Below, piece after piece: positions 49,947-53,041 of a stretch of DNA of 64,000 nucleotides. A program made the position numbers and the translations under genes. The notes beneath the pieces were generated by a model. It was not told where the DNA came from. It was given only the letters and a program-made list of their open reading frames with translations, and ran no database searches. Numbering within the stretch: the first letter of the stretch is position 1; each line of letters starts with the position of its first letter. The DNA is taken from assembly GCA_023301725.1 (NCBI GenBank), contig JALZUD010000037.1, forward strand, positions 1-64,000, given 5' to 3'. This DNA is from Granulosicoccus sp. (lineage in GTDB: Bacteria; Pseudomonadota; Gammaproteobacteria; Granulosicoccales; Granulosicoccaceae).

Positions 49947-52571
49947 TTACTGACGTTCGCCAATTCGAAAAACTGCAGCAAGTTGAACATAACGCACGTC
50001 AGTGTCGAAACTGATAACCTCAGCGCGCAAGCTCAAGCCTTTTTTACCCGCGTACTCCACACCAGCTCCAAATATTGCATGGTTGGTATTGTCTCTGCTG
50101 AATTGGACGCTGCTATCGCTTTCATCGTTATCCAAGTGCCCGAAACCTAGCCGCCCGTAAGCATTCAGGCCTTGTCGTTTAAAGCGTTTTCGATTCTTGC
50201 TCACATAGAACAGTCCACTCGCACCAAAGGTCCTGTAGCTGATGGAGCTACCATTGGAAAGGTCTGCATCGCCAAGTTCGGCAATGTGCACTTCAAGTGA
50301 TAACCATCTGTTGGCGTCCCAGCCTACGGTCAACTGAGCCGCGGCTTCATTGTTGTCCTCTGCATCAACGGAACTCACCTCGCTAGAATCCGGCTCAAGC
50401 CTGCTGACCCCGACCCCGAATCCTGTGTAGAAGTGCTGCTTGAAGCCTGGTTGAACGTCCACACTTGGGTCGTTAACATTTACGGCTTCTGCGGATGGCA
50501 CGGGCTCATCCGCTGCCATGGCTGGGTTTGTGATCGTACCCAGGGTAACTAAACTTAACGTCGCTGTTGCTAGCAAATATACTGTGTGTTTTGCACGTTG
50601 TCGAAGTGCCAGCATCAGAGCAGTAAAGCCTAGTAAAGGTAACAGGGGGTCTAATGGTTCTGTGCTGCTCACTGAACTACTGATTGAACAACCCGAGCCA
50701 GACAGCCCAGTGCGAATTCTTCCCGCGTTGCCAGTAAAACCAACGCCGGGTTCATTGATATCCGCAATACCATTGCCGTTGCTGTCGGGAAGCTCGCTTA
50801 GGTTAGGCGAGCCTGAGCCATTACTTTGAAAGTCAGAAAAACCATCGCCATCAGCATCTGGGTCACGTTCGTCAATAACGCCATCCCCATCACGAAAGTC
50901 TGCAATGCCATCGCTATCAGAGTCGATGGAGCCTTCCAGAATATCTGGAATGCCATCGTTGTCTGAGTCGCGGTCGAGAAAATCAGGTAGACCGTCGTTG
51001 TCGGTGTCGGTCTCATTACCGCCTTCAATAGTATTGCTGATGCCATCGTTGTCGGAGTCATCATCCAGATAATCAGGTGTGCCGTCACCATCAGCATCGC
51101 CATCAGCTTCTTCTGAATCATCAATGCCGTCGTTATCTGAATCGGTGTCAAGGTAGTTTGGTGTGTTATCAGAGTCTGTGTCAGCGCCACTCTCGTCACT
51201 GTCTGAAATACCATCGCCATCAGAATCGGTGTCCACGTAGTTGGGTACTGTGTCGTTATCGGCATCGTCGTTGCCTTCAACACTGTCGCTAATGCCGTCG
51301 TTATCAGAGTCTGAATCAAGATGGTTGTTGATACCATCGCCGTCTGTGTCGGTTGGCTCTAGTGCATCGTCAAAGCCGTTGCCATTATTATCAAAGCCAC
51401 CAGTTTGATCGGCATCAAAAACATCATCAATGCCATCTGAGTCGGTATCAACTCCAGATGCATCTGGCATGGTGGTGTCCTCTTCACTATCGAGGATGCC
51501 ATCGCCGTCGGAGTCTGTATCTAAGTAGTCAGGAATAGTGTCGCCATCGGTGTCGCCAGTACCTTCAAAAATATCGGGAATGGAATCGCCATCGCTATCG
51601 GTATCTTCTTTATCACTTAAACCGTCACTGTCAGAATCTGCATCGCCCTCTACCAGATCACATACTCTGTCGTTATCTTGATCGCCAATAGCACAGGCAG
51701 TTAATGAGTCTGAGTTGTACGCAATGAACGGTGGGTCTGCGGCAGGGGGGAGATTCACTTCCAAACGAACAGCGCTGCTTAGCTGTGTAGCGTCAATACC
51801 AAAGTCTGCCAGACTTAGAGTAAAGCCCTGCACGCTTATGATTTGATTTGCATGCACATTTTGGAAGGGGCTAGTTGTCCTAAAGCGATCATTGCTGACT
51901 GTAGCTATGCTTGGGTGGCTATTTTCAGCACTGCTGGCAGTAATCCCGATTTGTTCGTCTGCTGAATTGAATAGTTTAAATTCAACGGCTGAGGCTGATG
52001 GAGCTGCGTTGTTGTAGTACATGAACTCTGGTACATCGTCGTCTAAAGCATTTATATTGATGTTGCTTAAATTGAAATTAGTTGTTGAGGCAACATTGTT
52101 GCCAAATGTAGAGAACCCAAGCCCATTGGTACCGTCAGTCAGGTAAGCGGTAATATCTCGGTTCTCTATTGGGAAAAGGAGGTCAGTTCCATCGGAGGCA
52201 TTACCGTCGTCTAAAGAGCCTTGACCTACTAAAGCTGAGGTGAATTCAAAAGGTACGAGCGCCTTGAACGTTGCTGAAGTAAACGTGATGTCGTTTTCTG
52301 TAAGCCGTTGATCGTTGACGCCGGTACTGAAGGTGGTTCCATTTTGCTGGAAGCCCAGTAAATTGTTTGCCGAGTCAAGCTCTATCGGTGAGACGTTGCC
52401 TTCATACGATTCGTAGAAGCCACCAAAGTCAGTAAGTACTCCTGTTATCGACTCTTCGGCGTACACACTGTTCGCCATTGCACTAAGTGCTACGGTGACA
52501 AGTGTTGTTGTAATCTTAGGAGCGTAAGGCAAAAGGCTCCTTCCTGATATCAACGTTGGATTTATCGGCAT
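49947..52571 (-). CDS. Thrombospondin-repeat protein with internal CTERM-like tail fused to an OmpA-like beta-barrel
   Basis: The 874-residue protein has a signal peptide (to about SVYAEES) and a beta-rich domain (40-300). Calcium-binding thrombospondin type-3 repeats follow (about 305-605, DxDxDGxxD). Residues about 624-660 look like a complete C-terminal sorting tail: SGSGCSISS, then [16 protein letters not shown], then a basic RQRAKH. The protein does not end there. A second signal-like segment (661-687, ending PAMAA) leads to about 187 residues of alternating strands ([38 protein letters not shown]), an eight-stranded OmpA-like barrel. It looks like two exported proteins merged by loss of a stop codon, or a deliberate display device. 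The frame is unbroken. Confidence 0.85.
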
Positions 52572-53041
52572 AAATTAATTTCTCAGAAAATATTAGGTGC
52601 TTTTCCTTTTTTACCAGCTTAAAGAAAACCAAGAATTGCTGAGATAGCAACTACCTGTCCATATCTGAGATATTAATAATACAACTATGGCACTTTTCTA
52701 AAGTAAATCGTAAGTGATTGTATTTTATGAGAATGACAAGCTTCGCATGTACGTACGTAGCTTACTTGAAATGAGTGAAATCACGCTCGCATCTACGTAC
52801 GTAGTTTACGTGTAATGAGTGGGATCACATCGAATTCGCGAGTAGTTTGACAGTTGTAGCCAATCTTTGCTAGCTGATGCGTGCTTGCAGATCATCGCCA
52901 ACAAAAAGCTGAATAGGTGAGTTTTGAGTGCCTCAATAGAGTCTATTTTTAAGGCTAATAACAAGCTATTGACCGCTGGCTAGAACAGCAGCTAGAACAG
53001 CAGCCAGAACGAAGGGTGTGGTTCTAGCAATTTTCAAAGTA
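52572..53041. other. 470-bp gap upstream of the TSP3-barrel gene
   Basis: No gene is supported. The region holds a 44-base direct duplication with palindromes (52744-52831). A 12-base tandem pair (GCTAGAACAGCA at 52979-52990 and 52991-53002) with a partial third copy lies near the end of the convergent gene's 3' side. Confidence 0.5.
52744..52831. repeat. Two 44-bp direct repeats, each with a TACGTACGTA palindrome
   Basis: Unit 1 (52744-52787) and unit 2 (52788-52831) share CGCAT-TACGTACGTAG-TTAC and ATGAGTG-ATCAC. The core of unit 2 is the 12-base perfect palindrome CTACGTACGTAG. The pair lies 170-260 bases upstream of the gene at 49947-52571 (minus) and could bind a regulator, two dimers per site. 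Confidence 0.8.

Follow-up and report, generated by a model that had tools for sequence, protein, structure and literature searches.

A sorting tag in mid-chain, followed by a second signal peptide and an OmpA-type barrel, points to secreted polyproteins in Granulosicoccus and related Gammaproteobacteria

The window, a stretch of 64,000 nucleotides from a Granulosicoccus sp. genome, carries a frame of 874 codons (52571..49947, minus strand) that is open throughout, with no stop between a JDVT-CTERM-like sorting tag, a second signal peptide and an outer-membrane barrel. We consider it probable (about 0.7) that this frame encodes a single secreted polyprotein, which the protease MrtJ cuts at the tag and signal peptidase cuts at the second signal to give an adhesin and a barrel partner; single-chain translation, both cuts, the lipidation, the surface location and the partnership are all steps that we infer. 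The odds seem slightly better than even that such Gram-negative secreted polyproteins form a class-wide family, in which the basic end of the tag is also the start of the next signal so that no stop is needed, the unrelated intramembrane proteases MrtJ and rhombosortase cut the internal tags so that surface adhesin and barrel partner come apart, and fused and split forms interchange. The window gene is organized as follows:

52458..52571, minus strand: first signal peptide, residues 1-38, with a predicted signal peptidase I site between VYA and EE (motif reading)
51690..52457, minus strand: N-terminal domain of unknown fold, residues 39-294, without a Pfam match
50736..51689, minus strand: aspartate-rich repeats, residues ~295-612, with 17 DxDxD-type pattern matches
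50592..50729, minus strand: internal JDVT-CTERM-like sorting tag, residues 615-660 (sub-cut-off NF033191 match; end of the homologue L251)
50690-50688, minus strand: codon of the tag cysteine, Cys628 (sequence)
50514..50591, minus strand: second signal peptide, residues 661-686, with predicted cleavage between AMA and ADE, after Ala686
50442..50513, minus strand: linker between second signal and barrel, residues 687-710 (sequence)
49947..50441, minus strand: OmpA-type eight-stranded barrel, residues 711-874, and stop (Pfam, AlphaFold, Foldseek)

Within the adhesin part, the N-terminal domain has matches in 6 of the 48 genomes of the window's family, the window's own among them, and a single-sequence structure model of it was useless (pLDDT 33). 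The aspartate-rich repeats, which presumably bind calcium and which we take to be of the thrombospondin type 3 kind, gave no match in a Pfam scan. Around the junction, Cys628 is followed by DPLLPLL from residue 641, a hydrophobic stretch (641-656) and a basic loop, RQRAKH (657-662), after which a second hydrophobic segment starts at 663 and leads to the AMA at 684-686. The tag's basic residues from 657 onwards would also form the n-region of the second signal peptide.

In the barrel, Pfam OmpA_membrane matches residues 712-851 with 36.2 bits (cut-off 21), and an AlphaFold model of the tag-signal-barrel piece, built on 34 sequences, contains eight barrel strands (ten-residue blocks at pLDDT 75-97) together with a low-confidence tag and signal, modelled in part as one helix (residues 643-676). 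When this model was compared to solved structures with Foldseek, OmpA barrels ranked first (1bxw, TM 0.73 by target length); a sequence profile search of solved structures gave no match. By its transmembrane domain match and its eight strands the window protein is an OmpA-type barrel, and it ends directly after the barrel, whereas L012 and other relatives continue into an OmpA-like C-terminal domain.

The tag was identified by NF033191 (JDVT-CTERM), which matches residues 624-657 with 18.3 bits in the whole protein, 20.4 in the junction piece and 23.3 in a scan of the window's own genome, in each case below the curated cut-off of 27 bits. Internal tags of several fused relatives exceed this cut-off (48.1 bits on contig C82 of genome G027, 47.2 on C1 of G020), and 33 of the 43 fused loci in our alignment A1 match JDVT-CTERM at E<=0.01. 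The window tag shares the cysteine, hydrophobic stretch and basic end of JDVT-CTERM tags, and departs from them in not being at the extreme C-terminus, with 212 residues beyond the loop. The cysteine is kept in 42 of 45 fused family loci (L030, L058 and L061 are without it). Two other proteins of the same genome carry the tag at their strict C-terminus, and a 1065-aa homologue of window residues 25-294 (L251 in genome G034, 64% identity) ends with a Cys-DP-hydrophobic-RRR tag and then a stop, with no barrel in the 1.4 kb to the contig end and the next gene on the other strand. Two further homologues of the N-terminal part, in G015, end with Cys-less tags. As judged from these sequences, region 624-660 is the place where such proteins end, and no ordinary linker, because L251 ends exactly with this tag. 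The sequence-only reading of this DNA, which had taken 624-660 for a full C-terminal sorting tail, is thus borne out by the NF033191 match, sub-cut-off as it is, and by L251; of the tag models with which it wanted the tail compared, JDVT-CTERM gave this sub-cut-off match and GlyGly-CTERM (TIGR03501) none up to E 10.

To evaluate how often this arrangement recurs, we searched the 48 family genomes, which are mostly drafts, with the tag-signal-barrel piece. Matches were found in all 48, with at least 45 in-frame tag-signal-barrel junctions in at least 27 of them, including three fused loci in the single-contig genome G020. The window's own genome holds a second fused gene (on contig C15) as well as a split version on C54, where a lipoprotein-type barrel gene, read in another frame, shares 22 nt with the end of a tag-ended repeat protein. 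The loci fetched were the 30 first given plus 40 picked among the matches listed, and the 45 fused loci among 79 barrel frames examined are no frequency since the picks favour long frames; the 45 were chosen by hand for two hydrophobic segments before the barrel. In alignment A1 (43 fused loci, L059 and L060 being left out), the other 42 are 30-47% identical to the window. Separately, the region 8000-27000 of C54 (L019) contains three separate family barrel genes within ~8 kb.

Beyond the family, a sample of 369 gammaproteobacterial genomes included 52 matching the tag-signal-barrel profile, 4 of them from the window's family, and we read 26 further fused loci in 22 genomes outside it (with L183, whose barrel is too short for the tree, counted as fused by reading), 23 of which have a Cys-less tag. 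A first scan of a named genome collection with the window piece gave no match; the relatives in that collection are Granulosicoccaceae, Granulosicoccus and Chromatiales MAGs. Overall, the earlier claim that a tag, a second signal-like segment and an OmpA-like barrel lie in one open frame holds on the Pfam, AlphaFold and profile matches and on this recurrence, and the proposed search of homologues for split versus fused forms returned both. The claim that a mid-chain sorting tail is unusual stands for the literature covered here and fails for this family, with its at least 45 loci. As for the outcomes that were to speak against that reading, a stop or frameshift at the junction or a plain linker in place of the tag, 45 loci keep the junction open, and the tag is terminal in L251.

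The second hydrophobic segment reads as a true signal peptide across the fused loci; that of the window is of the AxA type, the weaker motif, rather than a lipobox. A lipobox is present in 26 of 45 second signals, with its cysteine 12-17 residues after the hydrophobic start, as compared to a mean of 2.3 and a maximum of 7 in 1000 rounds of shuffling (the same 36 letters permuted), and in 0 of 45 tag hydrophobic segments. Two lipobox counts under slightly different rules both gave 26, with L057 scored by the first rule alone and L058 by the second alone; L065, scored by both, may be of the signal peptidase I type. When any signal-peptidase site is allowed, AxA-type included, 44 of 45 second signals have one (shuffles: mean 29, maximum 37), the one without a recognisable site being L060. 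Among 31 split barrels whose own signals were measured, 19 have a lipobox, 9 an AxA-type site and 3 neither. The lipoboxes would be hard to explain without cutting at this position, and no other single observation hints as strongly at processing. In all 45 fused loci the loop that joins the two hydrophobic segments has a net charge of +3 to +8, its positive start being by construction as charge was counted from the first basic residue; such a positive loop is the charge expected of a cytoplasmic hairpin.

Fused and split forms were compared on a quickly built tree that places 70 fused and 56 split barrels (126 in all) and has several long branches for which the stars carry a warning. The tree required 24 label changes, 10 of them forced by starred branches, as compared to a mean of 41.6 when labels were shuffled (0 of 500 shuffles as low as 24). 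The fused or split label is partly inherited over stretches of the tree, since it is more clustered than in any of the 500 shuffles. Some labels were set by hand (L087 to split, L064 and L186 to fused), L154 was dropped as a copy of L073, and loci L203-L242, which include copies of loci already in the set, were left out. Right behind a tag-ended frame stand 25 of the 56 split barrels (a script flagged 29, from which L034, L155, L184 and one L019 row were rejected; the tag frame was taken by reading in L172, L179 and L181), and for the other 31 no such frame was found in front. The gap, measured for 22 pairs, is within 30 nt in 20; in 8 of the 22 the two frames overlap, with overlaps ranging from 1 to 22 nt and equal to 4 nt in three pairs. 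Close kin can differ in form, L037 and L048 being fused and L051 and L092 split with overlaps of 8 and 4 nt. Judging from these loci, one form seems able to stand in for the other, which would be expected of a chain that is cut in any case. Near to the fused form are three loci in which the tag and barrel share a frame with stops between them (one in L072 and L077, two in L079).

The proteases that the polyprotein reading calls for are present. In the window genome, MrtJ (NF033192) scores 111.4 bits (cut-off 75) and is accompanied by a rhombosortase and a type II secretion secretin; across the family, 44 of 48 genomes have an MrtJ that passes its cut-off, including all 28 genomes with completeness of at least 90% and contamination of at most 5%. 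A barrel gene of the family lies in front of MrtJ on the same strand in 21 of the 30 MrtJ loci examined (of 46 matches), its frame ending 134 to 294 nt before the EExxFR motif, and no barrel gene was found in the remaining 9 of the 30. On contig C61 of the window's genome, the barrel-OmpA gene preceding MrtJ (L015, 3-1349) has a long PExAQLP-type repeat array between the barrel and the OmpA-like end.

Outside the family, MrtJ is over cut-off in 6 of 22 genomes, namely 4 of the 4 in which a Cys tag was seen and 2 of the 18 others (Fisher 0.002; the genomes in this and the next test are not independent). The four are G122, G258 and G225, with fused loci, and G358, with the split pair L157; the test covered fetched loci only and left out the Cys-tag split-pair genomes G090, G111, G124, G148, G230, G309, G352 and G363. 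Within a single genus (g81), G122 has MrtJ and a Cys tag, and G249 lacks MrtJ and has a related fused protein that is Cys-less. Rhombosortase is over cut-off in 22 of 22 outside genomes, as compared to 5 of 19 barrel-negative genomes (3.3e-7; these controls were the first genomes without a barrel match in the 369-genome sample, two of them <80% complete, with the 0.4-Mb G065 left out), and in 6 of 6 family genomes tested. Its presence singles out no tag type, because it is also found in Cys-tag genomes. When ten outside tags were scanned against GlyGly-CTERM, L185 passed (19.6 bits, cut-off 15.5), L187 was just under (14.0), and the other eight gave no match.

Taken as a polyprotein, the window chain might be handled in the following way. 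Sec would export its first part behind signal peptide 1 until the tag's hydrophobic segment stops transfer and leaves the basic end in the cytoplasm, where that stretch could double as the n-region of signal peptide 2. The hydrophobic core of signal peptide 2 would then re-enter the membrane and lead the barrel across as well; signal peptidase (I or II) would release the barrel, and the BAM machinery would put it into the outer membrane. Cys628 would presumably be lipidated first, with MrtJ cutting the tag beside it, and type II secretion would probably take the adhesin to the cell surface; the lipidation and type II secretion steps come from a published model of which the passages used here mark some steps as speculative (PMC11980579). 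Each chain would yield one repeat adhesin, anchored by its lipid, and one barrel partner, so that both are made in equal numbers, and the two would work together as TraA and TraB do, which are encoded separately; outside the family rhombosortase would probably cut in place of MrtJ. With such a topology, the barrel would not get to the outer membrane unless signal peptidase, at the least, cuts the chain. The partnership of adhesin and barrel is not obligatory, given the 31 of 56 split barrels without a tag-ended frame and the barrel-less, tagged L251, and the polyprotein reading is weakened by a window tag under the JDVT-CTERM cut-off and by the weak motifs that AxA sites are.

The barrel could also be made separately from an in-frame internal start (Met653 in the window), the long chain being a by-product, which we regard as unlikely. 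Some ATG, GTG or TTG does occur in the tag or loop of all 45 fused loci, and Met653 would give a plausible n-region. However, in anti-Shine-Dalgarno pairing (44 fused loci, L060 left out; best of several candidates on both sides), the best internal ATGs of fused loci do no better than internal ATGs elsewhere (29 vs. 115, p 0.93), while the starts of split barrels beat internal ATGs (26 vs. 115, p 0.0008). With all start codons allowed, 24% of fused loci reach -4 kcal/mol, as compared to 33% of random draws of three and 50% of split starts, and the window's Met653 ATG, at -2.4 kcal/mol, equals background (median -2.5). Three of 44 fused loci (L067, L070 and L071) lack any start codon 2-25 residues before the hydrophobic core, and with no stop in the way the ribosome would still produce the long chain. 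Strong Shine-Dalgarno sequences do exist in nine fused loci (-5 kcal/mol or better), at an ATG in L063, L081, L061, L066 and L085 and at a TTG in L033, L069, L086 and L073, the strongest being L063 (-11.5 kcal/mol) and L081 (-8.4). These nine may follow a mixed mode, with an internal start as well as the long chain; in general, internal starts in fused loci are not favoured by these comparisons.

The remaining alternatives concern the fate of the long chain itself. The sequence-only reading had left two options open, a cut inside the protein, which the relatives favour, and a barrel that anchors the repeats. For the latter, in which the chain would stay whole with 624-690 as an inert linker and the outer-membrane barrel holding the repeat stalk at the surface, one can cite the continuous frame, the existence of barrel-anchored passengers (autotransporters) and the Foldseek result, where the autotransporter EstA appears at rank 21. 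We nonetheless set covalent anchoring aside as quite improbable, since a signal-peptidase site, in many loci a lipobox, is retained in the second signal and the genes switch between fused and split forms; the tag is moreover terminal in L251, and two hydrophobic segments with a positive loop between them would be expected to hold an uncut chain in the inner membrane. Marginally more improbable still is a chain cut only at the second signal, its mid-chain tag unprocessed and the adhesin staying in the inner membrane or being freed by other proteases. The window tag's score below the JDVT-CTERM cut-off and the three fused loci without a tag cysteine would fit this, but the cysteine is otherwise conserved, MrtJ co-occurs, and the genomes of the Cys-less loci (G022 and G024) have a rhombosortase. 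That the junction is an artefact of assembly or sequencing, or a gene fusion in decay, is scarcely credible even for a window from a 148-contig assembly; sequencing error was dropped since the junction recurs in relatives, including the single-contig G020.

The closest described counterpart of the polyprotein layout is MXAN_5598 of Myxococcus xanthus, tabulated among vesicle proteins as an OmpA domain protein (PMC4158809, as excerpted here), in which an internal MYXO-CTERM is followed by barrel and OmpA domains (PMC11980579). In the passages of that paper used here, internal motifs are said to occur in rare cases, and MXAN_5598 is called atypical, possibly a gene fusion, and likened to TraA plus TraB, with processing and anchoring of its N-terminal part being proposed. 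Like the window protein, MXAN_5598 as described there has a large adhesin part, an internal Cys sorting tag and then an outer-membrane barrel; unlike it, the tag is a MYXO-CTERM paired with MrtX. The likeness is drawn from the published description. A second signal peptide, which the window protein has, is not mentioned for MXAN_5598 in these passages, and the layout is described there for one myxobacterial protein, whereas we find it at many loci.

TraA and TraB of M. xanthus likewise pair an adhesin that is tagged and at the surface with a protein that has an OmpA-like domain, and their frames overlap by four bases (PMC3325183, in the part used here), much as frames overlap in some of our split pairs. 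They differ in being two genes with other adhesin domains and in having a known role, outer-membrane exchange, in the sources as excerpted, whereas the window family is known from sequence alone; the window protein also lacks a TraB-like C-terminal OmpA peptidoglycan-binding domain. With the JDVT-CTERM/MrtJ system, the window genome has both tag family and protease in common, although JDVT-CTERM is by name a C-terminal tag and that of the window precedes a signal peptide and a barrel. The GlyGly-CTERM/rhombosortase system (TIGR03501, TIGR03902) is the counterpart for other Gammaproteobacteria, where internal tags are mostly Cys-less and the genomes have rhombosortase; the words internal, fusion, OmpA, downstream and barrel are absent from the text of the paper on it (PMC3237569). 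Among the papers searched, one mentions JDVT-CTERM. A literature search on bacterial polyproteins found no matching papers, nor did our searches find in print the breadth of the layout, the lipobox second signal, the fused/split interchange or the match of tag type to protease. In print, one protein of this layout, MXAN_5598, is called atypical; in the genomes read here the layout is widespread.

Sorting tags and signal peptides usually work at the ends of chains, and here both appear to act in mid-chain, repeatedly, and perhaps with two kinds of protease. If this is true, envelope polyproteins would be a regular bacterial device rather than an oddity, and the JDVT-CTERM system, probably along with GlyGly-CTERM, would be tied to an OmpA-type barrel partner. 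It is tempting to see in this link a handle on how tagged adhesins get to, or remain at, the surface, and the dozens of natural fused and split forms offer material on which a requirement of MrtJ and rhombosortase for a free C-terminus could be tested.

Some smaller features were noted along the way. A promoter-like site at the junction (50604-50576, minus strand) was rejected, as the region holds 4 such sites against a shuffle mean of 4.8 and thus no excess. The fused frame of L084 (contig C70 of G002) has a listed length of 12,049 codons, and a KLTQG-type repeat separates its tag cysteine from the hydrophobic stretch. Finally, upstream of the window gene, an intergenic 42-nt direct repeat is present in two copies (52743-52828, 86% alike) with the palindrome TACGTACGTA, and this pair is a possible operator.
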